A DNA stretch of 64,000 bases from Leucobacter soli (lineage in GTDB: Bacteria > Actinomycetota > Actinomycetes > Actinomycetales > Microbacteriaceae). The stretch is from assembly GCF_910593785.1 (NCBI RefSeq), contig NZ_CAJVAP010000001.1, positions 1-64,000 of the forward strand. The letters run 5' to 3'. Numbering within the stretch: position 1 is the first letter of the stretch; every line of letters begins with the position of its first letter. Made by a program: the position numbers and the translations under genes. The notes under the pieces are model-generated. The model saw nothing but the letters and a program-made list of their open reading frames with translations. It made no database searches and was not told the origin of the DNA. Shown here one piece after another: positions 866 through 17,107 of the stretch.

Positions 866-1846
866 CTACCCGAACCGGCCCTGCACGTAGTCCGCGGTCC
901 GCTGATCCTCCGGGTTGCCGAACAGCTTCGACGTCGGGCCGGCCTCGACGATCACCCCGGGGGTACCCGCTGATGCGAGGAAGAACGCGCAGTGGTCGGA
1001 GACGCGTTGCGCCTGCTGCATGTTGTGCGTGACGATCACGATCGTCACCTCGCGCTGCAGCTCTGCCATGGTCTCCTCGATGACCCGCGTCGACGTCGGA
1101 TCGAGGGCCGAGCACGGCTCATCCATCAGCAGCACCTTCGGCTTCACCGCGAGCGAGCGCGCGATGCACAGGCGCTGCTGCTGCCCGCCGGAGAGGCCGG
1201 CGCCGGGCTGGCGCAGGCGATCCTTGACCTCGTTCCAGAGCCCGGCCTTGGTGAGGCACTCCTCGACGAGGTCGTCCTTCACCGACTTCTTCGCCTTGAT
1301 CCCGGTGAGCGCGAGCCCGGCGAGCACATTCTCCGAGATCGACATGGCGGGAAAGGGATTGGGCTTCTGGAACACCATGCCGATGTGCTTGCGCGCGTCG
1401 GTCACGCGGAGCTCGGGGTCGTAGACGTCGATGCCGTCGAACAGCACCTCGCCGGCCAGCGCGGCGGACGGCACGAGTTCGTGCATACGGTTCAGGATTC
1501 GCAGGAATGTCGACTTGCCGCATCCCGAGGGCCCGATCAGCGCGGTCACGCGGTTCGGCTGCATGACGAGGTCGATCCGATCGAGCACCTTCCGGTCGCC
1601 GAACCAGGCGGATACGCTGCGCGCCTCGAGGGCGGCCGCCGGGCGGTCCACGGAGATCTCGAGTTCACCGGGCCGAATGCTCGCAGCGCCGAGCAGCGGG
1701 ACCTCCGGCGCCTCCAGGACCGGCGGGAGCAGCTGGGTCAGCCCGTCAGGCGGGGACAGGGGCGGCAGTGCCGCTCCCCCGCCGTTCGGGCTCGCCGGCG
1801 GCAGCGTCAGCTCGGCCGTCTCGTTGTCGTCGATCGAGAGTGTCAC
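866..1846 (-). CDS. pstB: Phosphate ABC transporter ATP-binding protein PstB
   Basis: Cytoplasmic ATPase of the PstSCAB phosphate importer. Walker A GPSGCGKST lies at about residues 105-113, followed by the Q-loop (FQKPNPFP), ABC signature (LSGGQQQR), Walker B with DEP (LLMDEPCSALDP) and switch histidine (IVTHN). NPFP after the Q-loop is characteristic of PstB. The protein has 326 residues against about 250-260 usual; the extra is a Pro/Ala/Leu-rich N-terminal extension of roughly 65-70 residues before the ABC fold. The start is GTG with AAGGAAG about 7 nt upstream. Unusually, three binding-protein genes and a sortase-like gene separate it from its permease genes. Identity is firm. Confidence 0.96.
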   Translation of the reverse strand: MTLSIDDNETAELTLPPASPNGGGAALPPLSPPDGLTQLLPPVLEAPEVPLLGAASIRPGELEISVDRPAAALEARSVSAWFGDRKVLDRIDLVMQPNRVTALIGPSGCGKSTFLRILNRMHELVPSAALAGEVLFDGIDVYDPELRVTDARKHIGMVFQKPNPFPAMSISENVLAGLALTGIKAKKSVKDDLVEECLTKAGLWNEVKDRLRQPGAGLSGGQQQRLCIARSLAVKPKVLLMDEPCSALDPTSTRVIEETMAELQREVTIVIVTHNMQQAQRVSDHCAFFLASAGTPGVIVEAGPTSKLFGNPEDQRTADYVQGRFG

Positions 1847-1902
1847 GAGAGTCTTCCTTTCTCGTCCGGCCGATGCCGGGTCGATGCGGATCGTGCCGCG
1901 GA

Positions 1903-2877
1903 TCAGAGTGTGTTGGGGAGCAGGATCATCGCCTGGACCGATGCGGTCGTGGCGAGGAGGAGCAGGATGGGGAACCCGACGAGCCAGGCCTGCCAGCGCC
2001 CCCAGTAGTGGACGCCCAGCACGGCCAGCACCGCGGTGGCGAGGACGCCGATCAAGGCGAGCACGAGCCAGGGGACGGCGCTCGGGTCGCCGGCGAGCGT
2101 CTGCTCCTCGGCGCTGAGCGTCGCGTTCGCCACCACCTGGTTGGGGGTGACGAACGGCTCGGAGGTGAGGCTGGCGTCCACGCGGACGACGGATCCCGAG
2201 AAGTAGGGAATCGGGGCGTGCGTGCTGACCAGGGTCAGGCGGCCGGACCCCGCGGGCATCGCCTCCGGGAGGGGGTCGCCGCCCCGGCGCACGTCGGTCA
2301 CGGTGTACGTGCTCGTGCCTTGGCCGGTCGTCGCGGTGATGGTGTCGCCGATCTGCAGCGCGAGGAGACCCCCGAACGGAGCGCCGAACGCCGAGGATCG
2401 ACCCACGATCACGCTCGCGCCGGCTTGGCCGGGGAGGACGGCGTCTCGGCGGAGGCCCGGACCGGATGCGGTCACGTCGGAGGTCGTACCGGCGAAGACC
2501 ACCTCGTTCTCGAGCCCGAGGCCGGGCACGTTCAGGAGTGCGACCGGGGTGCCGGGCGCGATCGCGAGGTCATCGGGGCCGATCTGGCCCACGGGGGCCG
2601 TGCCGTTCGCGAGGTCGTAGCGGAACCCCTCGAACGCGACCTGCTGGTCCCGCAGATGCTTGACCGGAAGTACGAGCACGACCTGCAGGACGAAGACGAC
2701 GAGGACCATGCCGATGGCGACCAGTACGCTGCCCCAGTAGCGGTAGCGGTCGAGCTCATCCATCGCCGGGATGGCCGCGGTCAATGAGATCCGGGGGGAA
2801 TACGGGACCCGGAACTCCTCTTCCGGCCGCTTCTTCGGGCTGGGAGGCGCTCCGGGCGTCGGGGATGTCGTCGTCAT
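1903..2877 (-). CDS. Sortase-like membrane protein lacking catalytic residues
   Basis: 324 residues: cytoplasmic N-terminus, one membrane helix (about 47-70), an extracellular sortase-like beta domain (about 100-235), and two C-terminal helices (about 262-285 and 293-318). The fold call rests on sortase landmarks in order: the segment VIVGRSSAFGAPF aligns with the class D/E pattern V-I-x-G-H-x-x-x-x-G-A-P-F, then L-x-x-G-D-x-I, then RLTLVSTHAP where L-T-L-V-T-C is expected. Thus the catalytic His is Arg and the catalytic Cys is Thr, and the late Arg is not where expected. I infer an inactive sortase homologue with a structural or binding role. It lies between a PstS-like gene and pstB, 56 nt before pstB. 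No LPXTG substrate was noticed nearby. Confidence 0.68.
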   Translation of the reverse strand: MTTTSPTPGAPPSPKKRPEEEFRVPYSPRISLTAAIPAMDELDRYRYWGSVLVAIGMVLVVFVLQVVLVLPVKHLRDQQVAFEGFRYDLANGTAPVGQIGPDDLAIAPGTPVALLNVPGLGLENEVVFAGTTSDVTASGPGLRRDAVLPGQAGASVIVGRSSAFGAPFGGLLALQIGDTITATTGQGTSTYTVTDVRRGGDPLPEAMPAGSGRLTLVSTHAPIPYFSGSVVRVDASLTSEPFVTPNQVVANATLSAEEQTLAGDPSAVPWLVLALIGVLATAVLAVLGVHYWGRWQAWLVGFPILLLLATTASVQAMILLPNTL

Positions 2878-2934
2878 GTGCTCTCTCGGGAAACGCCCCG
2901 GCGCATCCCCTCTCGACGGGGACTGCGCCAGGGC

Positions 2935-2969
2935 GATTCGCGCCGGCCCGCTGGGAGCCGGCGCGAATC
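2935..2969 (-). terminator. Perfect 13-bp hairpin after the third PstS-like gene
   Basis: GATTCGCGCCGGC (2935-2947) and its exact reverse complement (2957-2969) flank a 9-nt loop. The hairpin begins 13 nt past the stop of the PstS/Ig-like gene and ends upstream of the sortase-like gene. No T-run follows, so it may be a Rho-type or partial terminator, or an mRNA-stabilising stem that sets a high ratio of secreted protein to the downstream genes. Confidence 0.6.
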
Positions 2970-2982
2970 CGGTTATCTGGGG

Positions 2983-5019
2983 TTACCGCTTCACCTTGAA
3001 GCTGGTCTTGCCGGTGGCGGACTTGAAGTTGCCATCGCTCTTGAACGAGACCGTCACCTTGTGGGTGCCGCTCTTCACCTTCTTGATGCTGACCGTCGCC
3101 TTGCCGCTGCTGTTGAGCTTCACGTTCTTCTTGATGGTCTTCTTGCCATCCTTGATCGTGACGGTGCCCTTGGCGTTCAGCTTGGAGTTGGTGCTGACGG
3201 TGACCTTCACCTTGGCGGTCTTGCCGGCCTTGAGGGTCTTGATCTTCGCGATCTTGACCTTGGCGCTGGCCTTGTTCACCGTGAAGGAGACCGACTTCGA
3301 CGCCGAACCGGCGACTGCGGACGAGCCGGCGTAGGTCGCAGTGATCCGGTGGGTGCCTGCGGCGAGCTTCGACGAGAGCTTCAGGGAGGCCTTGCCACTC
3401 TTCACCGTGGCGCTGCCGAGGGTCTTCGAGCCGTCCTTGAAGGTGACCTTGCCGGTCGCGGTGCCGGCCGAGGCCTTCACCGTCGCGGTGACGGTCGCCG
3501 CCGAGCCGTAGGTGCGGTTCGAGATCTTCGACACGGTCGTGGTCGACGACTGTGCGGTGACGACGAGGGACTTGGCCGCGTCCGTCGTCTCCGAGTAGGC
3601 GACGCCGCTGAGCGCCGGCACGAAGTTCGCGATCACCGAGAGCGAGGCCGGGGCGGTCGGGGTGTATGCGACGGTCGCGCTGGTCTGACCGGCCGGGATC
3701 TCGACCGAGGTCAGCTCCTTGCCCGACTCGATCGCGCCGTCGTAGAAGGTGACGGTGCCGCCCTGGTCCCCGGTCGAGGTGACCGTGGCGCCGAGGGTGA
3801 CGGCCGCACCAGCGGCGGCGTTCGCAGGGACATCGATCGAGACCGACGAGGGCGAAGCCGCGTAGTCGGTGCGCGAGATGTCGCCGCAGGCGTTGGCGCC
3901 CGAGGCGGCGGTCAGCGCGGCGAAGCCGTAGCGCTCGATGGTGTCGGTCGCCTCGCAGACCTCGGAGTCGGTGCCCACGAAGGCGCGGTAGGTCTCAGAG
4001 GCCTCATCCTCGGCCTCGAGGCTCGGGATGATGTTGTAGACGAGGCGGGTGAAGGTCGAGTTGAACGCCGCGTTCAGCTTGTACGAGGTGCCGCTGCCGG
4101 TCGTGGGCGCGGTGCCGCCGATGAGGTTGATCTTCGCGCCGCTGCGGACGTCGGCGACGCCCTCCGCGCCGTTGGCCTGGGCGACCCACTGCGCGACCGA
4201 GTACGGCACGAGTGCGGCCTTCTGCTGGTCGGGCGTGCCCGAGGTGAACGGCGCGCCGCTGTTCTCCTGCACGTCGGCGCCCGAGAAGTCCTTCGCGACG
4301 TTGGCGCCGAGGTTCCCGTTGACGTTCGAGGTCACATCGCCCTCGTTCAGGCCGACCTTGCCGATCCAGAAGCTGCGGGTGCCCGAGCCGGCCTGAGGCA
4401 GCCAGGTGGTGATCTGCACGTAGCCGGCGCCTGCGGTCGCGCTGAGCTGCCCCGCCTCGTTCACGTACCGGAGGTTGCCCTTGTAGATGTCGGTGAGCTG
4501 CGCCTGCGTCAGGTCGCTCGGGATCCAGCTGTTCGCGGAGGTCGCGTACGAGACCGCGTCCGTGGCGAACGGGACGTAGGTGAGCACGCCGCCCTCGACC
4601 TGCGCGCCGGGGCCGGAGGAGCTGCGGGCGTACTGGATCTGGCCGGCTGCGACGTCGGTGGTCACCGACCGGGTACCGCCCGTGAAGGTGGCGACGTTCG
4701 CGTTGCCGGTCTGGCCGATCGCCACACGCAGCAGGTCGCGGCCGGCGCCGGAGCCGTTGGCGCGCGGGATCGCGACGCCGTCGGCCTTCGTCACGACGGT
4801 CGCACTCGCACCGGTCGCGTCGTAGGAGGCCAGCAGGCTGCCGGGGATGTCCGCCGCCAGGCCGTTCATCACGAACTGGGTGGTGTCGGATCCGAGCCCC
4901 GCGAGGGCGCCGAAGCTGCCGCTCGCCGGATCCGCGTGCGCCGGGGAGATCGCGGTGCCGGCGATGAGCACCGCGCAACCCAGTCCGACCCCGAACTTCG
5001 CGAAGGACTTGACCTTCAT
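2983..5019 (-). CDS. Secreted PstS-like protein with C-terminal Ig-like repeats
   Basis: The start chosen is ATG 5019, preceded by GGAGGA with good spacing; an in-frame ATG at 5064 lacks this. The 678-residue product has a Sec signal peptide (MKVKSFAKFGVG..., cleavage near AHA-D). Next is a PstS-like periplasmic-binding region of about 370 residues containing LTDIYKGNLRYVNE, comparable to the 'I-F-x-G-x-I-x-x-W' part of PstS. The last 270 residues are Ig-like modules, increasingly Lys/Ser/Thr-rich (VTFKDGSKTLG, VTIKDGKKTIK). There is no membrane anchor or LPXTG, so it is likely exported and cell-wall-associated through the basic repeats (inference). A PHO-box promoter upstream suggests induction by phosphate starvation. 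Phosphate binding itself is not demonstrated. Confidence 0.78.
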   Translation of the reverse strand: MKVKSFAKFGVGLGCAVLIAGTAISPAHADPASGSFGALAGLGSDTTQFVMNGLAADIPGSLLASYDATGASATVVTKADGVAIPRANGSGAGRDLLRVAIGQTGNANVATFTGGTRSVTTDVAAGQIQYARSSSGPGAQVEGGVLTYVPFATDAVSYATSANSWIPSDLTQAQLTDIYKGNLRYVNEAGQLSATAGAGYVQITTWLPQAGSGTRSFWIGKVGLNEGDVTSNVNGNLGANVAKDFSGADVQENSGAPFTSGTPDQQKAALVPYSVAQWVAQANGAEGVADVRSGAKINLIGGTAPTTGSGTSYKLNAAFNSTFTRLVYNIIPSLEAEDEASETYRAFVGTDSEVCEATDTIERYGFAALTAASGANACGDISRTDYAASPSSVSIDVPANAAAGAAVTLGATVTSTGDQGGTVTFYDGAIESGKELTSVEIPAGQTSATVAYTPTAPASLSVIANFVPALSGVAYSETTDAAKSLVVTAQSSTTTVSKISNRTYGSAATVTATVKASAGTATGKVTFKDGSKTLGSATVKSGKASLKLSSKLAAGTHRITATYAGSSAVAGSASKSVSFTVNKASAKVKIAKIKTLKAGKTAKVKVTVSTNSKLNAKGTVTIKDGKKTIKKNVKLNSSGKATVSIKKVKSGTHKVTVSFKSDGNFKSATGKTSFKVKR

Positions 5020-5086
5020 GTGTGTTCCTCCAAAAGGTGTGGATATCAGCTGCCGCGGACGCACCTGAACGATCGCAGCGGTCCCC

Positions 5087-5163
5087 AGACTAGGAAGCCC
5101 GGGGGAACGGGAGAGTGGTACCGGGTGAAGCGCGGGCGAACAACCGGCGGTCGGAAGGTGAAC
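5087..5163 (-). promoter_or_regulatory. PHO box and -10 element for the third PstS-like gene
   Basis: On the minus strand four consecutive 11-nt units run GTTCACCTTCC, GACCGCCGGTT, GTTCGCCCGCG, CTTCACCCGGT (5163 down to 5120). Units 1, 3 and 4 match the actinobacterial PhoP direct-repeat pattern G(G/T)TCAYYYR(G/C)G closely. A -10-like TAGTCT follows at 5092-5087, placing the box over the -35 region, as in PhoP-activated promoters. The promoter would be internal to the pst locus. Confidence 0.6.
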
Positions 5164-5179
5164 GAGTGCGACGCGGCGT

Positions 5180-7690
5180 TCAGATCTTCGTCGGTCGGCC
5201 CTTTGCGCCCTTGCGCATCAGGAGCGATCCGCCGAGCAGCGCCGGCACGCCCAATGCCGCCGAGATGCCGAGGGCGACGCCGCGGGCGCCCGCCGTCTCG
5301 TGGTCGGTGACCCCTTCGTGCAGCCCCGGGCCCGACGCCTCCGGCTCGTCCGCGCCCGGTGCATCGGGCGAATCGATCGGCTCGCCGAGCGCGTCGTCGT
5401 CGGATCCGGTCTCGGTGTCCGGATCCGCCTCGGGTTCCGCTTCCGGCTCCGGCTCGGAGGCCTTCTCGTCGGGGCATTCCTTCGCCACCGCCTTCGCGTC
5501 GCGCAACAGGGCCGAGAGCTTCTTGACCACGGAGATCTGCTCCCCCGACAGCGGGACGTAGCCGACGGGAAGCCGCCCGACCTCGTGTCCGACGATCTGC
5601 CCGATACCGCTCAAATGGTCGAGCAGGCTCGCATACCCGTCGCGCGTGCGGGCGTCCGCCGAGCAGAGGGCGATGGCCGCATGCGTGACGGTCGCGAGCG
5701 GATAGGCGTCGAGCGTGCGCGCCTGCGGATCGGGGACCTTCGCGACCTTGGAGGTCTCGCTGGCGGTGAACCCGCCGATCGCGGCGGTGATGGACTCGTC
5801 CGTCGGCGCCACCGCCTGCCCCGCTCCGTTCACGATCTTCGCCATGTTGAGGCCGTAGCGCTCCGCCGAGCTGCGCGTCGTGACGGCGAGTTCGAAGCGC
5901 TTCCCGGGCAGCTGCGCGCCGCCCGAGACGTACTGGGCAGGGGTCCGGGTCGGATCCCAGACGAACTTCGCACCGGCGTCGCCTCGAGCCGCCCGATAGG
6001 CGGATTCGGCGAAGTCCTGGGCGTAGGGCCGGAGATCGAGCGTCCCGTAGCCCGGCGCGCCGAGGGCGGCATCGGCGCCGACGACGGTGAGGTCGGCCTT
6101 CGGGAAGCTGTTGATCGACGCGTCCGACACGATCGCGAGTCCCTGGTAGACCGGGTTGATCCGCATGCCCCAGTCGTCGGCCCGCCCCTCGAGGAAGCCC
6201 GCGGCCTGCGGGTCCGCCTTGATCCAGTCCCACACCTGGGCGATGTCGTCCGAGGATCCGAAGCTGACGATGAGGCCTTCAGGAGTGGCCGAGGTCTGGA
6301 ACTCGGCGAACTCCGGGTTCAACTCGGTGAACTCCGGATCGCGCACGATCGTGTACGGGTTCTCCGTCAGCGGGCTCGTCGAGCCGCCTCCGGGAACGTC
6401 GACGCGGTACGACTGGGTGAGGAGCTTGGCGACGAGCCGAGCGTTGAGGGTGAGGTTCGTGACCGGCGTGCCGTTCCGATCCTCCCGACTGCTGCCGCTC
6501 CGGAAGTCCCGATCGATGTTGTAGCCGAACACGATCGCGTTCTGGGCGATCGGAGCGTACTCCACCTTGGTCGATCCCTGCTGCGCCTTCGTCAGCGGAT
6601 CGGCGACCGCGGCGAAGCTCGACGACCCGCTCGACGCGGAGAGCAGCTGGCCGCGGGACTCGTCGTCGCCGAGCTGCGAGTAGCCGAGCGTCGTCCCCTG
6701 CGGGCAGATCGCGGCCTGGTACGAGGTCATCGCCTCGGTGAACTCTTCGTTGCCCACGATCCGGACCTCCTGCGACCCGATCGTGCAGCTCGCGGTGGTG
6801 GGGGTGAACGACATCGGGAACACCATCCGGTTGTCCCACGCCGATTGCGAGAGCGGCGAACCCGTCAGCCGGCCGTCCTGATTGGCCGTCGCCGGCTGCC
6901 CGGTGGTATTGCTCTCGCCGCGGGGGACGACGACGAGCCAGCAGGATCGGATCCCCCCGTCGGGCAGGCTCGCGCCGCAGCCGAGGTGCGGCGCCGAGAG
7001 CGAGCTCTGCAGCTGGAAGACGGAGAGGCCCGAGCCGTCGGACCCGGTGCGCACCGCATCGACCTCGTTCGTCGACGCCGCCGTGAAGTAGGTGGTGGTG
7101 TCGAACACGCGCTCGCCGCTCACCGGGAGGAACGGCACCGCATAGCTCCGCGCGTTCGGACGCGACGGGTTCGTCGGCAGGCGATAGACGTCGTCGTCGT
7201 AGCTCTGCTTCGGATCCGAGCCGCGCGAGCTGAGACTGCGCGAGGCGGCGCCGGTCCCGAGCAGCGCGTTGAGACTCGCGGTCGAGGCGCCGAATTGGCA
7301 CTGCTCGGGGGCGGGCCCGCTCTCCGCGTCGTCGCCCCAGCACTGCATGATCTGCAGGTAGTTGGTCGCGAAGTCGCCCTGCGAGGTCGCCTTCGCACCG
7401 GTCCACGAGACGACGACGCCCTGATCGCTGAGGTGCTCGGACTGGGAGACGCCGACCTCGAGATCCTCGAACACCGCGTAGTCGGGGTCCTCCGGGTCCC
7501 GTTCCCCGGCCAGGCCCCCGTCGGCCCACTTCTGCACGATGGCGGAGGTCTCCTCGGCCGCGGAGGCCGAGCTCCCGGCTCCGATCAGGCTGAAGCCGCT
7601 GACCGCGCCGACGGCGCCGAGCACGACCCCCACGATCAGGAGCCCGGCTCCGATCCTCCGGTACGCCGCCGAATGATCCTGCGCGTTCAT
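5180..7690 (-). CDS. Large membrane-anchored PstS-like substrate-binding protein
   Basis: 836 residues. An N-terminal membrane/signal segment (AGLLIVGVVLGAVGAVSGFSLIG) is followed by a long extracellular region with PstS-like stretches, an acidic E/P/D/A-rich linker near 750-800 and a C-terminal membrane helix (VALGISAALGVPALLGGSLLM) with a short basic tail. It is about twice the size of a normal PstS. ATG 7690 overlaps the pstS stop by ATGA, so the pair is probably translationally coupled, and its position in the pst operon supports a role in phosphate capture at the cell surface. Several internal Cys residues suggest disulfides. Ligand and function are inferred from context and weak similarity; it could instead be a structural partner of PstS. 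Confidence 0.62.
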   Translation of the reverse strand: MNAQDHSAAYRRIGAGLLIVGVVLGAVGAVSGFSLIGAGSSASAAEETSAIVQKWADGGLAGERDPEDPDYAVFEDLEVGVSQSEHLSDQGVVVSWTGAKATSQGDFATNYLQIMQCWGDDAESGPAPEQCQFGASTASLNALLGTGAASRSLSSRGSDPKQSYDDDVYRLPTNPSRPNARSYAVPFLPVSGERVFDTTTYFTAASTNEVDAVRTGSDGSGLSVFQLQSSLSAPHLGCGASLPDGGIRSCWLVVVPRGESNTTGQPATANQDGRLTGSPLSQSAWDNRMVFPMSFTPTTASCTIGSQEVRIVGNEEFTEAMTSYQAAICPQGTTLGYSQLGDDESRGQLLSASSGSSSFAAVADPLTKAQQGSTKVEYAPIAQNAIVFGYNIDRDFRSGSSREDRNGTPVTNLTLNARLVAKLLTQSYRVDVPGGGSTSPLTENPYTIVRDPEFTELNPEFAEFQTSATPEGLIVSFGSSDDIAQVWDWIKADPQAAGFLEGRADDWGMRINPVYQGLAIVSDASINSFPKADLTVVGADAALGAPGYGTLDLRPYAQDFAESAYRAARGDAGAKFVWDPTRTPAQYVSGGAQLPGKRFELAVTTRSSAERYGLNMAKIVNGAGQAVAPTDESITAAIGGFTASETSKVAKVPDPQARTLDAYPLATVTHAAIALCSADARTRDGYASLLDHLSGIGQIVGHEVGRLPVGYVPLSGEQISVVKKLSALLRDAKAVAKECPDEKASEPEPEAEPEADPDTETGSDDDALGEPIDSPDAPGADEPEASGPGLHEGVTDHETAGARGVALGISAALGVPALLGGSLLMRKGAKGRPTKI

Positions 7691-9354
7691 GCCCGCCTCC
7701 GTTCGCGCACCAGTCGGGCCGCCATCGGCGGCACCAGGACGACCGAGGCGAGCAGCGCTATCGCGACAGCCGCGATCGTCTGCTCCGCGCCCCAGCCGGT
7801 CTCCGCGTCCACGGACACCGGAGCGGCCACGACGTTGCTGCATATCCCCGTGTCCTGATCGCAGACGATCGGCCCGCCGCCCTCGGTCGCACCGAGGAGG
7901 GTCACGCCGCCGGCTCCCCCGGCCGAGTCGAGTGCCCCGGGCTCTCCGCCCGCCGCGGAATCGTCTCCGCTGCCCGGACCGCCGCCGCTGCCCGAACCGC
8001 TTCCGCCGGTCGAACCGCCGGAGCTGCCCGGGTTCGTCGTGCCGGTGGCACCGCCGGTCCCCTGGGCGCATTGCTCGTCCGCGCCCTTCTTGTCGCAGGC
8101 GTCGGGCATGGGGGCCTGCGTGGCCAGCGTGTTCGTCCCGTCGGAGGAGAACGTCGGATTGTTGCACTTCTTGATGTCGATGCTCTGCGTCTTGACGCCC
8201 GGGATCCGCTTGACCTGGGCCAGACCGGCCTTCACCAGGTTGATCGGCAGCGGCGAGTAGCCGAGCGCGTCCGCCTGCTGCTGCCCCTCGCAGAGGAAGT
8301 AGTAGGAGAAGGCGCCGAGCGTCTCGCCCTTGCTCTGCGTGAAGCCGCTCTGCGTGGAGGTCGGGATGATCAGGTAGCTGTACGAGGAGAGCGGGTACGT
8401 CCGGGCATCGGAGTTGCGGTAGACGCCTTTCAGCTTCTGCGTCAGATACTGGTCTGAGCCCTTGTCGGTGTTGATCTTCGCGCCGAGCAGGCCGACGGCG
8501 ACGTTGGACGCCGTGGGTTCCACGTAGTACCCGGAGCGGTTGAGCACCTTCGCGACCGGGTAGCCGCTCTTGAGCGCGTACGAGTACTCGACGTAGGTGA
8601 TCGTGCCGATGTTGGCGGTCTGCGCGACGTAGCCGGCGACGCCCTGCGACCCCGCCTGCCCGACGAAGCCCTTGCCGTCGACGATCGGGAAGTTCGACGT
8701 CTGGCCGCACTTGCCCGATCGCCCGGCCTGCGTGCAGTAGGCGTTCCAGGTCGACGACTGCTCGGAAGCCATCCAGGCGGTGAACTGGGCGGTGGAGCCC
8801 GAACCGTCCGATCGGACGACCGGCACGATCGCGCGGTTGGGCAGGCTCAGGCTCGGGTTGTCGGCGGCGATGTCCTTGTGATTCCACTTGGTGATCGCAC
8901 CGGTGAAGATCTTGGCGAGCACCGGGCCTGAGAGCCGCAGGTTCGTGACGCGCTTGCCGCCGATCTGCAGGTTGTACATGAACGCCGTGCCACCGGCCAC
9001 GACGGGCATGTACGCGTACCCGCGCGAGGGCGGCGTGTCGACGACCCCGGCGTCGGTGAGCCCGTACGGGATCTCGGACACCGCGAAGTCCACGGTGCCG
9101 GATTTGAACTGGTTCCGGCCGTCGGAGGAGCCGCTGCTCGCGTAGTTGATCTTCATGCCGTACTGCTGCACGTTGCGTCGCCACTGGTCGATCGCGTTCG
9201 CGCTCCAGGTGGACCCCGCGCCGTTCACCGGCACGTAGTCGGCGGCGCTCGCGGCCGTGGCGGTGACCGTGACCGTGGCCGGCACGAGGATGCCCGCACC
9301 GAGGATGACGGCCAGGATCAGCCCGCCCCATCGCCGATTCGTCCGTCTGTTCAC
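7687..9354 (-). CDS. pstS: Phosphate-binding protein PstS, C-terminally membrane-anchored
   Basis: 555 residues from GTG 9354, preceded by AGGAGAG; the start overlaps the pstA stop as GTGA. A signal peptide (LILAVILGAGILVPATVTV, ending ASA-A) leads into a classic PstS domain: VNGAGSTWSANAIDQW, the SSGSSDGRNQF phosphate-loop region, DFAVSEIPY, IFTGAITKWNHKDI and VRSDGSGSTAQFT. After residue about 430 comes a Gly/Ser-rich linker and then a C-terminal helix (TIAAVAIALLASVVLVPPMA) with a basic tail. Many actinobacterial PstS proteins are lipoproteins; this one is instead anchored from the C-terminus. It should deliver phosphate to PstCA. Identity is firm. Confidence 0.93.
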   Translation of the reverse strand: MNRRTNRRWGGLILAVILGAGILVPATVTVTATAASAADYVPVNGAGSTWSANAIDQWRRNVQQYGMKINYASSGSSDGRNQFKSGTVDFAVSEIPYGLTDAGVVDTPPSRGYAYMPVVAGGTAFMYNLQIGGKRVTNLRLSGPVLAKIFTGAITKWNHKDIAADNPSLSLPNRAIVPVVRSDGSGSTAQFTAWMASEQSSTWNAYCTQAGRSGKCGQTSNFPIVDGKGFVGQAGSQGVAGYVAQTANIGTITYVEYSYALKSGYPVAKVLNRSGYYVEPTASNVAVGLLGAKINTDKGSDQYLTQKLKGVYRNSDARTYPLSSYSYLIIPTSTQSGFTQSKGETLGAFSYYFLCEGQQQADALGYSPLPINLVKAGLAQVKRIPGVKTQSIDIKKCNNPTFSSDGTNTLATQAPMPDACDKKGADEQCAQGTGGATGTTNPGSSGGSTGGSGSGSGGGPGSGDDSAAGGEPGALDSAGGAGGVTLLGATEGGGPIVCDQDTGICSNVVAAPVSVDAETGWGAEQTIAAVAIALLASVVLVPPMAARLVRERRRA

Positions 9355-10724
9355 TGCGCTCTCCTGTCTTGGTCCACGTCGCCCCGCGCCGCCGGTGCGG
9401 CGTGCCTGGCACGTGCGGTTCTGGGCGCTGCCGCGGGTGACTGCGCAGCACGCCGTTCGCGCCGTGTCGTGAGGGCGCTCCATCCGCGCGACGCACCGCG
9501 CAGGAACCGCTCCCGCGATTCCTGACGCCGCGCCCGCGACTTCACGTCCTGGCGCCCGATGATGCGCGCGATCACGAAGAGGAGCACCACGAGCGCGAGC
9601 AGGACCACCGCGGTCCCGAAGCCGCGGGCGATCATCGCCGGCTCGGGCGACTTCACGAACTCGAAGATCGCGAGCGGGAGGGAGACCATCGGCCCGTTCA
9701 TCGGGTTCAGGTTCAGCGACGCCGTGAACCCCGAGGTGAGCAGCACGGGAGACGTCTCGCCGATCCCGCGCGCCGTCGCGAGGATGATCGACGTCGTCAG
9801 TCCCGAGCGGGCGGTCGGCAGGACGACCCGGCTCACGGTCTGCCACTGGGTCGCGCCGAGGCCGATCGACGCCTCCTTGAGGGTCGAGGGCACGAGCCGC
9901 AGCACCACGTCGGACGAGCGGATCATGATCGGCAGCATCATGATGCTGATCGCGATCGACGCGGCCATGCCCGATTTGTCCATGCCGAGGATCAGGATGA
10001 ACGTCGCGTAGACGAAGAGTCCGGCGACGATCGACGGCAGCGCCGTCATGGCTTCGACGATGGTGCGCACGAACCGGGCGAACGGGCCCGGGATCTCGGT
10101 GAGGAATACCGCGGTGACGAGCCCCAGCGGCACGGTGATCGCGAGGGCGATCCCGATCTGGATCAGGGTGCCGACGATGGCGTGCTGCACGCCGCCCATG
10201 GTGAGCGGGTCGAGGGGCCCGGTGGACGACATGTCCTCGAGGTAGAGGTTGAGATGCGGCAGGGCCTCGGCGCCCCGGATCACGGTGAAGGTGACGACGA
10301 AGATCAGGACGATCACGACGCCGCAGGCCAGGATGTAGACGACGGCCTCGAGGACGCGGTCGAGGACGGTCTCGAGGTCGCCGTCGACCCACGTGAGCAC
10401 GGCGTAGAAGAGGAGGAAGGAGATGATGGCGATCGCGACGAACCCGTAGAATCCGCCGAACGGGGCGAGCGTGGTGAAGATCAGCGTCGTGGCGCAGAGC
10501 GCCGCCGCGATCGCACCGGTGACGGTGAGCAGATCCCCGACGCGGATCGGATGCAGCAGCCGCCGGGGCTCCTCGTCGGCGGGGGCCGGGCGCGCCTCCG
10601 GGGCGGCCGTCGGCTGCTCGCCGAGCGCGTCGGCTTCGGCCTCGGCGGGAGCCTCGGCAGCGTCGGTCTCGAGCTCCTCGGGCGGGTCGATGACCGCGGT
10701 GGTCGTCAGTGTCGCATCGGCCAT
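9351..10724 (-). CDS. pstA: Phosphate ABC transporter permease PstA
   Basis: Inner-membrane permease pairing with PstC. The 457-residue protein is much longer than the usual ~290: an Ala/Glu/Pro-rich N-terminal extension (about 1-55), two extra helices (about 65-110), then the conserved BPD_transp_1 permease with six helices and the coupling-loop motif EASIGLGATQWQTVSRVVLP, and GIGETSPVLL typical of PstA. A basic Ala/Arg-rich tail of about 50 residues ends the protein. ATG 10724 shares one base with the pstC stop (TGATG), and its own stop overlaps the pstS GTG, so pstC-pstA-pstS are tightly coupled. Confidence 0.93.
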   Translation of the reverse strand: MADATLTTTAVIDPPEELETDAAEAPAEAEADALGEQPTAAPEARPAPADEEPRRLLHPIRVGDLLTVTGAIAAALCATTLIFTTLAPFGGFYGFVAIAIISFLLFYAVLTWVDGDLETVLDRVLEAVVYILACGVVIVLIFVVTFTVIRGAEALPHLNLYLEDMSSTGPLDPLTMGGVQHAIVGTLIQIGIALAITVPLGLVTAVFLTEIPGPFARFVRTIVEAMTALPSIVAGLFVYATFILILGMDKSGMAASIAISIMMLPIMIRSSDVVLRLVPSTLKEASIGLGATQWQTVSRVVLPTARSGLTTSIILATARGIGETSPVLLTSGFTASLNLNPMNGPMVSLPLAIFEFVKSPEPAMIARGFGTAVVLLALVVLLFVIARIIGRQDVKSRARRQESRERFLRGASRGWSALTTRRERRAAQSPAAAPRTARARHAAPAARGDVDQDRRAQ

Positions 10725-11737
10725 CAGTTATCGGCTCCCGAGCGCGAGCGGCCCACGATGGTGGACGCGACGAAGTTGACGACGAGCGTCAGCAGGAAGA
10801 GGGCCAGCCCCGCGGCCATGAGCGCCGACATGCCGGCGGCCGAGGCCTCGCCGTAGCGCAAGGCGATGAGCGACGAGACCGAGCTCGTGCCGTTCTGCAG
10901 GATGTGCGGCTGGATGACGAACACCGGCGAGATGATCATGTAGACGGCGATGGTCTCGCCGAGCGCACGGCCGAGGCCCAGCATCGAACCGCCGATGATG
11001 CCGCCCGCGCCGTAGGGCAGGACGACGGATCGGATCATGCCCCACCGGGTGCTGCCGAGCGCCAGCGCTCCCTCCCGCTCCCCGCCGGGGGCCTGCGAGA
11101 ACACCTCGCGCATGATCGACGTCATGATCGGCGTGATCATCGCGGCCACGACGAGGCCCGCGATGAACGTGGAGGAGGTGAACACCGTGATCGAGCTCAG
11201 CGGGTCCGCCGGGTCGAAGCCGTCCACGGCGAAGAGCGGGAACCAGCCGAACGCGGTCGCCAGCCACTTGGCGACGTCCGTGATGGTTCCCTGCAGGAAG
11301 AAGACGCCCCAGAGCCCGAAGACGACGGACGGGATCGCGGCCATCAGGTCGACCAGTGTCACGAGCGCTTTGCGGAGGAACTCCGGGCAGTACTCGCTGA
11401 TGAAGAGCGCGGTGGCGAGCGAGACCGGAAGCGCCACGATGATCGCGACGAGAGCGATCAGGATCGTGCCGACCAGCACCGCGGCGATGCCGAAACGACC
11501 GGCCCCGCCGTCCGGGTCCCACTCCACGACGGTGAAGAACGAGATGCCCGACACGCTGAGCGCCTGCCAGGCGCGCGCCAGCAGGAAGACGCCCACGCTG
11601 GACATGATGACGAGCACGGCGACGCCGCCGCCGCGCGAGACTCCCCGGAATACGCGGTCGGCCAGGGAGCGCGACGTGCCAATCGCGCGTGGGGACTCGA
11701 CAGTCACCTGCAAATGAACCTTCTCGAACAGCTCCAT
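10724..11737 (-). CDS. pstC: Phosphate ABC transporter permease PstC
   Basis: First gene of the pst operon. It has 337 residues and six or more membrane helices, with the PstC hallmarks AIPSVVFGLWGVFFL and EGALALGSTRWGMIRSVVLP (EAA coupling loop) and GRALGETIAVYMI. The ATG at 11737 lacks a clear Shine-Dalgarno; a GTG at 11707 has AGAAGG 11 nt upstream and is a serious alternative start that would remove ten residues. Divergent from aceE. A PHO-box-like array lies upstream, consistent with PhoP control. Confidence 0.93.
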   Translation of the reverse strand: MELFEKVHLQVTVESPRAIGTSRSLADRVFRGVSRGGGVAVLVIMSSVGVFLLARAWQALSVSGISFFTVVEWDPDGGAGRFGIAAVLVGTILIALVAIIVALPVSLATALFISEYCPEFLRKALVTLVDLMAAIPSVVFGLWGVFFLQGTITDVAKWLATAFGWFPLFAVDGFDPADPLSSITVFTSSTFIAGLVVAAMITPIMTSIMREVFSQAPGGEREGALALGSTRWGMIRSVVLPYGAGGIIGGSMLGLGRALGETIAVYMIISPVFVIQPHILQNGTSSVSSLIALRYGEASAAGMSALMAAGLALFLLTLVVNFVASTIVGRSRSGADN

Positions 11738-11755: not shown

Positions 11756-11826
11756 GTTTTACGACTCCCACAGCGTGGCTGGTCCGATCGAATGGACGAT
11801 GGCGTCCAGGTGAACCGCTGCTGAAT
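11756..11826 (-). promoter_or_regulatory. Candidate PHO box and -10 for the pst operon
   Basis: On the minus strand four 11-nt units from 11826 down to 11783 read ATTCAGCAGCG, GTTCACCTGGA, CGCCATCGTCC, ATTCGATCGGA. The second matches the PhoP half-site well, the first and fourth partly, the third poorly. TAAAAC at 11761-11756 could be the -10. The site is weaker than the one before the third PstS-like gene, but position and 11-nt phasing agree. Confidence 0.45.
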
Positions 11827-12029: not shown

Positions 12030-14777
<2,748 letters not shown>

Positions 14778-14800
14778 CGGGCGCGCCGGACGGGGCATCG

Positions 14801-15997
14801 ATGGAACAATCCAAGGAGCGCGAGCTCAGCTGGCTGCGAACGATCGCAGGCGAACTCGCCACGCTGACGATCACCCGACTGGACGAGACGCTGCCCTGGT
14901 ACGGCGACATGCCGCCGGGGCGGCGCAGCGCCGTCGGCCTCGTCGCGCAGACCGGGATCAGTTCGTTCATCCAGTGGTACGACGATCCGAGCGCGACGCC
15001 GTGGATCGCGAGCGACGTGTTCAGCTCGGCTCCGCGCGAGCTGCTGCGCAGCATCAGCCTTCAGGAGACGCTGCAGCTGATCCGCGTCGTCGTCTCGGTC
15101 GTCGAGGAGCGGGTCGCCCCGCGCAGCGAGGAGCTCCGCGAGGCGATCCTGCACTACTCGCGCGACGTGGCCTTCGCCGCAGCCGATGTCTACGCCCGCG
15201 CCGCCGAGGCCCGTGGGCTGTGGGACGCCCGCCTCGAGGCGCTCGTCGTCGACTCGATCCTCACCGGGGAGAGCGACGACGAGCTGCCCAGCAGGATCGC
15301 CGCACTCGGCTGGCACGGCACGGGCGAGGCGACGGTGCTGGTCGGCACCTCCGAGCGCACGGTCGACGTGGATCAGATCCGGCGCACGGCCCGCCATGCG
15401 GGTGCGGATGTGCTCGTGGGCCTGCAGGGCACCCGCCTGGTCCTGGTGCTCGGCCGGGTCGAGCTCGAGCCCAAGGAGCCGGGCGGCACCGTGCCGGAGC
15501 CGATCCCGTTCATCGAGATCGCGGGGAGGCTCGCGGAGTTCTTCTCCGACGGACCGCTGGTGCTCGGGCCGAAGGTGGAGAACCTGGTCGCCGCGTCCCG
15601 GAGCGCTCGCGCTGCGCTCGCGGGAATCGCGGTCGCCAAGTCCTGGCGTGCCGCGACGCGGCCGGTCGATGCCGACGAGCTGCTCCCCGAGCGCGCGCTC
15701 GCCGGCGACGGCCTCGCCCGCCGCACCCTGATCGAGCAGATCTACGAGCCGCTCAGCCAGCAGTCGGGCGAACTCATGGAGACGCTCTGGTGCTATCTCG
15801 ACAACGGCCGCTCGCTCGAGGCGACGGCCCGCGAGCTGTTCGTCCACCCCAACACCGTGCGCTACCGGTTGAAGAAGGTGAGCGAGATCATCGGCTGGAA
15901 TGCGACCGGTGCGCGTGAGGCGCTGATCCTGCAGGCCGCCCTGATCGTCGGCTCTATCGCCCAGCACGGACGGCGCAAGGCGCCGTCCAAAAAGTAA
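14801..15997 (+). CDS. fasR: PucR/CdaR-type transcriptional regulator FasR of fatty acid synthesis
   Basis: 398 residues. The C-terminal helix-turn-helix of the PucR family is clear (SLEATARELFVHPNTVRYRL, about 350-370); the preceding region is a GGDEF-like/CdaR fold with no recognisable catalytic motif. Position immediately before fabD-fabH-acpP-fabF and after aceE is the arrangement seen for FasR (SCO2386) in Streptomyces, an activator of the fabDHPF operon, so function is inferred from family plus synteny. ATG 14801 begins MEQSKERELSW; the upstream Shine-Dalgarno is weak. The gene ends with APSKK, and the sequence after the stop repeats this ending twice in degenerate form (see 15974-16107). 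Confidence 0.82.
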   Translation: MEQSKERELSWLRTIAGELATLTITRLDETLPWYGDMPPGRRSAVGLVAQTGISSFIQWYDDPSATPWIASDVFSSAPRELLRSISLQETLQLIRVVVSVVEERVAPRSEELREAILHYSRDVAFAAADVYARAAEARGLWDARLEALVVDSILTGESDDELPSRIAALGWHGTGEATVLVGTSERTVDVDQIRRTARHAGADVLVGLQGTRLVLVLGRVELEPKEPGGTVPEPIPFIEIAGRLAEFFSDGPLVLGPKVENLVAASRSARAALAGIAVAKSWRAATRPVDADELLPERALAGDGLARRTLIEQIYEPLSQQSGELMETLWCYLDNGRSLEATARELFVHPNTVRYRLKKVSEIIGWNATGAREALILQAALIVGSIAQHGRRKAPSKK

Positions 15998-16107
15998 GCG
16001 ACTCGCTCCGCACACGGAGCGGGCCGGCCTCCCGAGATCGCGCAAGGCGCCGAACAAGAAATAGGCGGCGCGAGCCGTCCAGCCGGAAGCAGCCGGACGA
16101 GAAATAG
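15974..16107 (+). repeat. Three degenerate copies of the fasR 3' end
   Basis: The last codons of fasR (CGC AAG GCG CCG TCC AAA AAG TAA, 15974-15997) recur at 16041-16064 with five changes over 27 nt, encoding R-K-A-P-N-K-K-stop. A third copy at 16087-16107 reads K-Q-P-D-E-K-stop. The unrelated spacers make the starts 67 and 43 nt apart. Whether the copies are decayed duplications or functional is unknown. Confidence 0.55.
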
Positions 16108-16173
16108 AGGGTTCCCACAACGATTTTCGGCTTTTCTCGGCATGTATATGCAGTTCGGAGCCGCTGAATCTGA

Positions 16174-16189
16174 GAAACTGTATGGCGTG
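16174..16189 (+). promoter_or_regulatory. Possible leaderless promoter of fabD
   Basis: GAAACT (16174-16179) lies 7 nt before the GTG at 16187. The same -10-to-start spacing (GATACT or TTTACT, 6 nt, GTG) occurs at mpg and the ROK gene in this window, and no Shine-Dalgarno is present here, so transcription may begin at or near the start codon. FasR would be expected to bind just upstream (16108-16170). Confidence 0.3.
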
Positions 16190-17107
16190 ATTGTTGTCGC
16201 ATGCCCCGGTCAGGGCTCCCAAACCCCAGGTTTCCTCTCCGAATGGCTCGAGGACAACGGAGCGCGAGACTTCCTCGGGCTCGCCTCCGAGCGGGCCGGG
16301 ATCGATCTCCTGGCGCACGGCACGACGAGCGACGCCGACACCATCCGCGACACGAAGGTCGCGCAGCCCTTGATCGTCGCCGCGAGCCTGCTCGCCTGGC
16401 GCGCGCTGAGCGCGCGAGCCTCGCTCGACGCGGTCGGTGTGGCCGGGCACTCGGTCGGCGAGTTCGCCGCCGCCGCCGCGAGCGGCGTGCTCAGCGAGGA
16501 CGATGCGCTCGAGCTGGTCGGCGTGCGCGGTCGCGCGATGGCGGAGGCCGCCACCCGCGAGCCGACAGGCATGAGCGCCGTCGTCGGGGGTGTCGAGACG
16601 GATGTGCTCGCCAAGATCGAGGCGCACGGGCTCACGCCCGCGAACCGCAACGGCGGCGGGCAGATAGTCGCGGCGGGCGCCCTCGATGCACTGGCCGCGC
16701 TCGCGGAGGACGCCCCGCGCGGCGCCCGCGTGATCCAGCTGCAGGTCGCCGGGGCCTTCCACACCTCGTACATGGCGAGCGCCGTCCCCGTGCTGCGGGA
16801 GGCGGCGTCCCGCACGACTGCGCAGGATCCGACCCACCGCCTCTGGACGAACGCCGATGGTTCCGAGGTCACGAGCGGCAGCCGCTACGTCGAGCTGCTC
16901 GTCTCGCAGATCGCGAACCCTGTCCGCTGGGACGCCTGCATGGAGGGCTTCCGGTCCGCCGGCATCACCGGCCTCATCGAGCTCACCCCGGCAGGCGCGC
17001 TCAGCGGGATCGCGAAGCGCGCGCTCAAGGGCGTGCCGACCGTGGCCGTGAAGACCCCGGCCGATCTCGACGCCGCCATCGAGCTGATCGACGGCGCAGC
17101 CGCCTGA
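16187..17107 (+). CDS. fabD: Malonyl-CoA:ACP transacylase
   Basis: Transfers malonyl from CoA to ACP to supply type II fatty acid synthesis. With GTG 16187 as start the product (306 residues) begins MIVVACPGQGSQTPGF, the normal FabD N-terminus; an upstream ATG at 16142 would add 15 unlike residues. The catalytic nucleophile is in GHSVGE (Ser89) with the partner His in VAGAFHTSYM (His192). The oxyanion glutamine is in GQGSQ. First gene of the fab operon, 19 nt before fabH; FasR probably activates it. Confidence 0.95.
   Translation: MIVVACPGQGSQTPGFLSEWLEDNGARDFLGLASERAGIDLLAHGTTSDADTIRDTKVAQPLIVAASLLAWRALSARASLDAVGVAGHSVGEFAAAAASGVLSEDDALELVGVRGRAMAEAATREPTGMSAVVGGVETDVLAKIEAHGLTPANRNGGGQIVAAGALDALAALAEDAPRGARVIQLQVAGAFHTSYMASAVPVLREAASRTTAQDPTHRLWTNADGSEVTSGSRYVELLVSQIANPVRWDACMEGFRSAGITGLIELTPAGALSGIAKRALKGVPTVAVKTPADLDAAIELIDGAAA

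Follow-up and report, generated by a model that had tools for sequence, protein, structure and literature searches.

Introduction

Phosphate importers of the PstSCAB type, as described from Escherichia coli and Streptomyces, are built from four core proteins, which are covered by the families TIGR00975 (PstS), TIGR02138 (PstC), TIGR00974 (PstA) and TIGR00972 (PstB). Here we describe a seven-gene locus of Leucobacter soli, located on a stretch of 64,000 nucleotides (contig NZ_CAJVAP010000001.1, positions 1 to 64,000; called the window in the following), that shares these four proteins and the phosphate motif of PstS but differs in its gene order C-A-S-x-x-x-B, in a PstS that has no lipobox and carries a hydrophobic segment at its C-terminus, in a PstC belonging to a separate clade and in three extra exported or membrane proteins, which we call BIG, IG and SRT.

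Several binding proteins and more than one Pst system per cell are also found in Mycobacterium tuberculosis, whose PstS1 and PstS3 are separate lipoproteins of simple make-up, and we know of no bitopic periplasmic binding protein (PBP), Ig fusion or sortase-like partner among its PstS proteins. Both PstS3 (4lvq) and PstS1 (1pc3) are among the best structural matches of BIG. SRT shares the sortase domain of the class E sortases (PF04203, NF033747; solved structures 5uus and 5go5) but has lost all three catalytic positions. A further likeness exists to the WxL/WxLIP systems (PF13731, PF06030), which originate in low-GC Gram-positives; it is confined to genes inserted into sister loci, whereas the locus of the window has no such domains. 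The accessible part of a 2021 review on phosphate transport in actinomycetes deals with PstSCAB, Pit, the pst genes of M. tuberculosis, present in two to four copies, and PhnCDE of M. smegmatis, and contains nothing like this locus (PMC7866108). No account of this locus type appeared among the open-access literature matches listed, and the 37-kDa secreted PstS in a table excerpt of PMC7839047 is uninformative for it.

Results and Discussion

The locus represents a real second system of the Pst type, conserved among relatives and combined with a pseudo-sortase and exported proteins that resemble receptors. It probably is a second, ancient ATP-binding cassette (ABC) importer for phosphate in Actinomycetota, distinct from plain pstSCAB, controlled by phosphate and equipped with a membrane- or wall-bound receptor assembly. 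Its seven contiguous reading frames all lie on the reverse strand (11737-866) in the order pstC-pstA-pstS-BIG-IG-SRT-pstB:

11809..11826, reverse strand: 11-nt direct repeat resembling a phosphate box (12 of 14 consensus positions), upstream of pstC
10724..11737, reverse strand: pstC, permease, TIGR02138 above cut-off
9351..10724, reverse strand: pstA, permease, both termini with long extensions, TIGR00974 above cut-off (match 124-391 of 457)
7687..9354, reverse strand: pstS, TIGR00975 above cut-off and PF12849; Sec-type signal lacking a lipobox; hydrophobic segment and Arg-rich tail at the C-terminus
5180..7690, reverse strand: BIG, 836 aa, with a PstS-fold domain preceded by an N-terminal helix and an additional domain containing Cys, and followed by a C-terminal helix (AlphaFold/Foldseek, hhalign, invariant columns)
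5471..6775, reverse strand: PstS-fold domain of BIG, about residues 306-740, bounds approximate
5157-5163, reverse strand: extra GTTCACC near the box of IG, 11-nt phase kept
5124..5141, reverse strand: 11-nt direct repeat resembling a phosphate box (12 of 14 positions), upstream of IG; support across the locus class weaker
2983..5019, reverse strand: IG, 678 aa, with signal peptide, PstS-like domain (about 3856-4932) and three Ig-like domains (about 2986-3855), from profiles and model
2935..2969, reverse strand: perfect 13-bp hairpin directly downstream of IG, terminator- or attenuator-like, without U run
1903..2877, reverse strand: SRT, pseudo-sortase; by eye an N-terminal transmembrane segment, the sortase domain, two C-terminal transmembrane segments and the end LLPNTL
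866..1846, reverse strand: pstB, ATPase with an N-terminal extension of about 70 aa, TIGR00972 above cut-off (match 73-326)

The genes pstA/pstS and pstS/BIG overlap by 4 nt each, and gaps of 160, 105 and 56 nt separate BIG from IG, IG from SRT and SRT from pstB. All four core proteins exceed the cut-offs of their NCBIfam equivalog families (PstC 260.7 against 196.45 bits, PstA 217.7 against 193.45, PstS 215.3 against 205 and PstB 345.3 against 343.2). Outside the matched cores, PstA and PstB are extended at the N-terminus and PstA also at the C-terminus. The original prediction, made from the sequence of the window, had named the same seven genes in the same order, and every one of them was found in its place. 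It had also set this order against the usual pstSCAB; pstB does come last, but the arrangement is typical of the locus type and thus no local peculiarity, and the idea of a locally scrambled pst operon was dropped as the same order recurs among 111 loci.

In 99 of the 111 loci pstC-pstA-pstS lies directly upstream of BIG, IG follows directly downstream in 102, and SRT adjoins pstB in 96 of the 97 loci having both among the next eight genes, the range in which the two were looked for. The gene neighbours are thus not random among relatives, as the original prediction had expected. Between IG and SRT there are no genes in 56 loci and one to four in 35. Six duplicate loci were removed from this count and at least two remain (L124 = L074, L126 = L072), which likewise applies to the motif and hairpin counts below; L096 and L097, which carry no BIG label, as well as L098 and L101 were excluded. 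From the 14 loci without downstream SRT and pstB, ten end at or near the end of their stretch, L094 and L095 are rearranged, L066 is present only through an ATPase on the opposite strand and L153 has no SRT though its contig continues. In the distant relatives L094-L097 the parts stay together while their order can be shuffled, and in L096 and L097 PstS matches are found in the large protein next to SRT. Gene models come from our own codon-usage script, and the flanking genes of the relatives are mostly unannotated.

A scan of a genome collection yielded 415 relatives among 455 matching stretches, of which 80 loci were retained; their hosts include Cellulomonas, Streptomyces, Actinoplanes, Planotetraspora and Jiangella. 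When 396 genomes of the phylum were compared, an SRT match above 70 bits was seen in 11, the same 11 that show the strongest BIG matches, with the 70-bit line set after inspection of the list and the next match at 58 bits. In four of them (G242, G227, G588 and G497) the BIG match covers wholly or mainly the C-terminal lobe, and in the first three a large protein adjoins SRT. Six weaker BIG matches in genomes without SRT cover the C-terminal lobe only and may be plain PstS.

Two Streptomyces carry two copies of the locus each, Streptomyces sp. Ag109_O5-1 on a single contig (L172 and L178) and S. olivochromogenes A53 (L131 and L179), in both cases one with a long IG (649-651 aa) and one with a short IG (321-331 aa). 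One locus of this type (L171) lies on a contig labelled as a Bifidobacterium breve metagenome-assembled genome, and its place in this bin is doubtful.

The genome of L. soli holds a separate plain pstSCAB on contig C6 (L101), whose PstS has a lipobox. A tree of 33 locus PstCs, chosen by hand, and 21 plain-type copies splits the two sets with a support of 100/99 and in 100% of the bootstraps; the tree is unrooted and contains three rows with long branches, so that the plain PstCs represent one side of a branch rather than an established clade. A further PstC, 31-46% identical to that of the window, occurs in 34 of the 38 genomes with SRT or BIG, a whole pstSCAB around the plain-type PstC being seen only in the genome of L. 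soli itself. The remaining four genomes (G200, G414, G227 and G497) have a single PstC match at E 1e-15, so that the locus system may serve alone there. Three PstC matches each were found in G089, G118, G150 and G183, which were counted with the genomes holding two locus copies.

Concerning the extra proteins, the AlphaFold model of BIG (pLDDT 87.5, pTM 0.83) contains helices at residues 4-33 and 800-830, in agreement with the membrane segments at both ends that had been read from the sequence before. A Foldseek search against the PDB returned phosphate-binding proteins by name (PstS, PhoX, DING and kin) for all of the top 30 matches, with a best E of 5e-13 and TM-scores normalised by target of 0.65-0.77 over ranks 1-20, the maximum being M. 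tuberculosis PstS3. The predicted fold of BIG is thus that of a PstS-type (type II) PBP. In line with this, hhalign aligns BIG to the PstS of the locus with E 2.6e-14 across BIG columns 309-732, and hmmsearch connects it to PstS1 with E 8.2e-11, a match limited to the C-terminal lobe. BIG has six invariant Cys residues (C117, C131, C238, C250, C302 and C329). In the distant relative L096, the large PstS-like protein beside SRT (7194-9023) starts with a neocarzinostatin-like domain (PF00960, 32.2 bits at a cut-off of 25), which hints at the nature of the N-terminal domain of BIG.

IG consists of a distant PstS-like domain followed by three Ig domains. Its model (pLDDT 93) is mixed alpha/beta up to about residue 388 and contains only strands from there to residue 678. 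In the PDB, solved binding proteins of the phosphate type match the first part with E 2.4e-6, and the PstS of the locus matches it with E 1.6e-7 (hhalign); PF12849 is found in 14 of 26 IG members, the IG of the window not being one of them; the second part comprises three Big_3_5 stretches in Pfam. A Foldseek search with the whole IG model gave no PBP among the best 50 matches, which are Ig-type and other non-PBP proteins, and the assignment of the PBP fold thus comes from the profiles. The PBP folds previously proposed for the large and the Ig-fused protein are therefore supported in both cases.

The sortase domain of SRT is recognized by Pfam (PF04203, 37.7 bits at a cut-off of 26.6) in agreement with the solved relatives, while the score against the class E sortase family NF033747 is 54.3 bits at a cut-off of 160. 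The SRT of the window contains no Cys at all and has Arg at the position of the catalytic His. Among 102 distinct homologues this position is Arg in 101 and Lys in one, the catalytic Cys is replaced by Ala (88), Ser (5), Gly (5) or Thr (4), and the Arg following the Cys is retained in a single one. These columns were located with five reference sortases, selected by the motifs they themselves carry out of 23 loci with sortase hits (L004-L007, L043-L061), the Arg column being defined by its position after the Cys, and the whole mapping rests on these five sequences. As judged from these alignments SRT is a pseudo-sortase, a sortase domain without catalytic residues; the proposal of a dead sortase-like protein thus holds more strongly than it had been made, namely for 102 of 102 homologues, and an active sortase was dropped as a candidate. 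At the C-terminus, 26 of 38 proteins end in LLPN plus two residues, and -PN- is kept in 34. LPxTG-like motifs within the last 60 residues are near nil (BIG 4/117, PstS 1/116, IG 2/122), and an anchoring of PstS, BIG or IG by LPxTG was therefore dropped, too.

The genes inserted between IG and SRT in sister loci look exported: a simple hydropathy rule assigns a hydrophobic N-terminus to 89 out of 99, compared to 222 out of 763 unlabelled genes in other places of the loci. We scanned 97 of them (two from L169 were omitted) and, at E 1e-3, found WxLIP in 19, Big_3_5 in 17 and WxL in four, besides a few Ig families, the best E-values for WxLIP and WxL matches being 1.1e-9 and 1.5e-6. One aligned group of inserted genes shows WxLIP in 14 of 16 members at E 0.01, its profile reaching only E 0.11 against the solved WxLIP. 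In the seven-gene locus of the window itself the Pfam scan detected neither WxL nor WxLIP domains. Many loci with inserted genes have a short IG (about 330-420 aa), so that the Ig-type repeats may sit in separate genes there. The domain content suggests that one function, reaching into the wall, might be achieved by differing parts in different loci.

For the regulation, two GTTCACC units spaced by 11 nt precede pstC and, less clearly, IG. The spacing is the same as in the Streptomyces box of the phosphate regulon, described as a pair of 11-nt direct repeats in the accessible part of PMC7866108, and matches the footprinted GTTCACnnnnnGTTCaC site at phosphate-transport promoters of Microlunatus, which the consulted excerpt of PMC6754071 reports to be bound by a DevR-like regulator. 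After deduplication a score of at least 11/14 is reached in 43/105 upstream regions of pstC, 17/116 of IG and 57/768 of other genes. Without deduplication the counts are 47/112, 19/122 and 59/817, with rank-test p-values of 5e-17 for pstC and 4e-4 for IG, and in this larger set BIG, pstS, SRT and pstB show no difference in score to other genes. Closer relatives (L062-L074, L102-L126) give 19/31 for pstC, 10/34 for IG and 12/184 for others, and the plain pstS of L. soli, used as positive control, scores 14/14. Five scrambled motifs reached 0, 5, 3, 13 and 1 of 112 at pstC and at most 11/122 at IG, with one at 17/109 at SRT. Because of these controls we regard the box signal, a motif score, as firm at pstC and as not firm at IG. 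The scrambled motif in question, CTCTACG twice at 11 nt distance, scores at least 11 in these 17/109 SRT upstream regions and in 19/817 of other genes, perhaps due to shared coding sequence or relatedness.

A perfect stem of at least 11 bp follows IG in 54/113 cases compared to 66/795 for other genes, 0/107 for pstC and 1/109 for pstS. As likely terminators between pstS and pstC are described for S. lividans (PMC7866108, accessible part), the hairpin could by analogy be a device that makes IG the most abundant product.

Regarding the surroundings of the locus, a protein that appears PASTA-like by eye is encoded downstream of pstB (70-861), and in the sister locus L077 a PASTA-type Ser/Thr kinase (14389-16209) lies directly upstream of pstC, where several sister loci have genes of similar size. 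A comparison with empty sites in the own genus does not separate an insertion of the locus from a loss: aceE is present in 21/21 genomes, but the 70-861 neighbour reaches no more than 45 bits in any genome other than that of L. soli.

The analysis shows which genes are present and in which order, the predicted folds, the lost catalytic residues, the separate PstC clade, the box-like motifs and the hairpin, and from these we infer the regulation, the ligands of BIG and IG, the role of SRT, the formation of a complex and a capture within the wall as follows. At low phosphate a PhoP-type regulator would switch on the operon at the box upstream of pstC, with the second box upstream of IG probably adding activation, and the hairpin downstream of IG would leave the exported IG in excess over SRT and PstB. 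PstC, PstA and PstB would import the phosphate handed over by PstS, whose membrane anchor would be the C-terminal helix and not a lipid. As a protein of predicted PstS fold that sits in the membrane and has no classic phosphate loop, BIG might act as a structural or docking co-receptor, and the secreted IG with its Ig stalk might catch phosphate or a related anion farther out in the wall. The non-catalytic sortase fold of SRT would then be a scaffold that keeps PstS, BIG and IG at the permease. The surface phosphate-capture assembly of the original prediction is plausible in this respect and agrees with the phosphate-box-like motifs and the export-like proteins of sister loci.

Several points weigh against an importer with such a receptor assembly, first of all the binding sites. 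These were mapped by profile and motif and not by superposed structures, using phosphate-contact positions that we take to be those of E. coli PstS. The PstS of the locus has the expected Arg and Ser-Gly-Thr/Ser residues (R181 in 35/36, S185 and G186 in 36/36), but the usual Asp site, as we presume it to be, is Glu in 32/36. IG keeps S212 and G213 in 52/52 and T214 in 50/52, but its Arg position is Pro in 50/52. In BIG the Ser-Gly-Ser/Thr loop is a gap in the profile alignment and the Arg position (residue 479) is Arg in just 5/59, with the neighbouring S480 and D481 kept in 44/59 and 55/59; the score of the single BIG sequence against TIGR00975 is 29.7 bits at a cut-off of 205, and PF12849 matches just 3/59 BIG members. 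As mapped here, the full phosphate motif is found in PstS alone, while it is altered in IG and degenerate in BIG. BIG as an ordinary third phosphate receptor was consequently dropped, and since the loop is missing from BIG, as is the Arg in most members, and IG has Pro instead of the Arg, both may bind no phosphate at all. The three PstS-type proteins proposed originally are thus retained with respect to PstS-like folds in BIG and IG, but not with respect to the complete motif. On the same side stands the patchy distribution, with BIG relatives in 48/199 genomes and 29/85 genera of Microbacteriaceae and in 3/54 genomes of the own genus, the other two being divergent (about 36%). In G497 SRT and BIG lie on separate contigs, and since all loci were found via BIG or SRT, their co-location is measured around these seeds. 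The box threshold is reached in only the 43/105 pstC upstream regions, the weak signal at IG (19/122) stands against 11/122 for the best scrambled motif, and the DevR-like regulator of the Microlunatus repeat is linked to oxygen in the excerpt of PMC6754071, so that PhoP is not the sole candidate.

A more far-reaching version of the importer would be a wall-spanning relay throughout the phylum, in which IG, by means of its Ig stalk or together with WxL/WxLIP partners in sister loci, captures phosphate in the outer part of the wall. BIG would either hand the phosphate on or bring PstS into position, and SRT as a scaffold would hold PstS and BIG by their tails, which resemble sorting signals, leave these uncut and dock both proteins to PstCA. 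We put this forward only tentatively, as a possibility that is rather less probable than not. If true, it would to our knowledge be the first nutrient importer in which a dead sortase serves for assembly.

Among the alternatives, the one that survives best is a re-aimed importer, in which BIG and IG recognize a larger phosphorus compound such as wall teichoic-acid phosphate, an organophosphate, polyphosphate or a phosphonate, and either the compound or freed phosphate is imported. The remodelled classic site of BIG, the altered site of IG, the plain-type PstC already present in 34 of the 38 genomes and the mostly exported-looking inserted genes of sister loci would fit such a role, but the conserved Arg, Ser and Gly of PstS and the assignment of PstC, PstA and PstB to PstCAB equivalogs do not, and neither phosphatase nor phosphonate families appear among the matches listed for the seven proteins of the window's locus, the flanks of the relatives, where a constant phosphatase neighbour might lie, being unannotated. 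We therefore regard it as unlikely. Even less probable is a phosphate-sensing device, in which the extra PBPs and SRT inform the permease or a kinase about the phosphate outside instead of gathering it. Signalling parts might well have the degenerate site of BIG or an enzyme fold that is dead, and Pst is involved in sensing in models covered by the accessible part of PMC7866108; however, the seven-gene locus of the window contains no phoU, phoR or phoP (the flanks of the relatives being unannotated), and the sole PstC in four of the 38 genomes fits an importer.

That SRT is still a working transpeptidase with an altered active site, covalently anchoring PstS, BIG or IG, is very improbable: the hydrophobic stretch and basic tail at the ends of PstS and BIG do resemble sorting signals, but the Cys and His positions are lost in every homologue, the following Arg in all except one, and the LPxTG-like motif is nearly absent from the three proteins. 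Finally, we give practically no credence to unrelated surface genes merely located in the operon, as the varying gene number between IG and SRT (0 to 4) is outweighed by the positions of BIG, IG and SRT, held in most of the 111 loci over several orders and in themselves already a contradiction to this reading, and by the co-occurrence of SRT and BIG over the 396 genomes.

Conclusion

The locus offers a widely conserved family of pseudo-sortases with a clear genetic context and a ready test whether Gram-positive cells gather nutrients inside their wall. As growth and antibiotic production of actinomycetes are steered by phosphate supply, their responses to low phosphate would have to be read differently if a second Pst clade brings along conserved receptors of its own.

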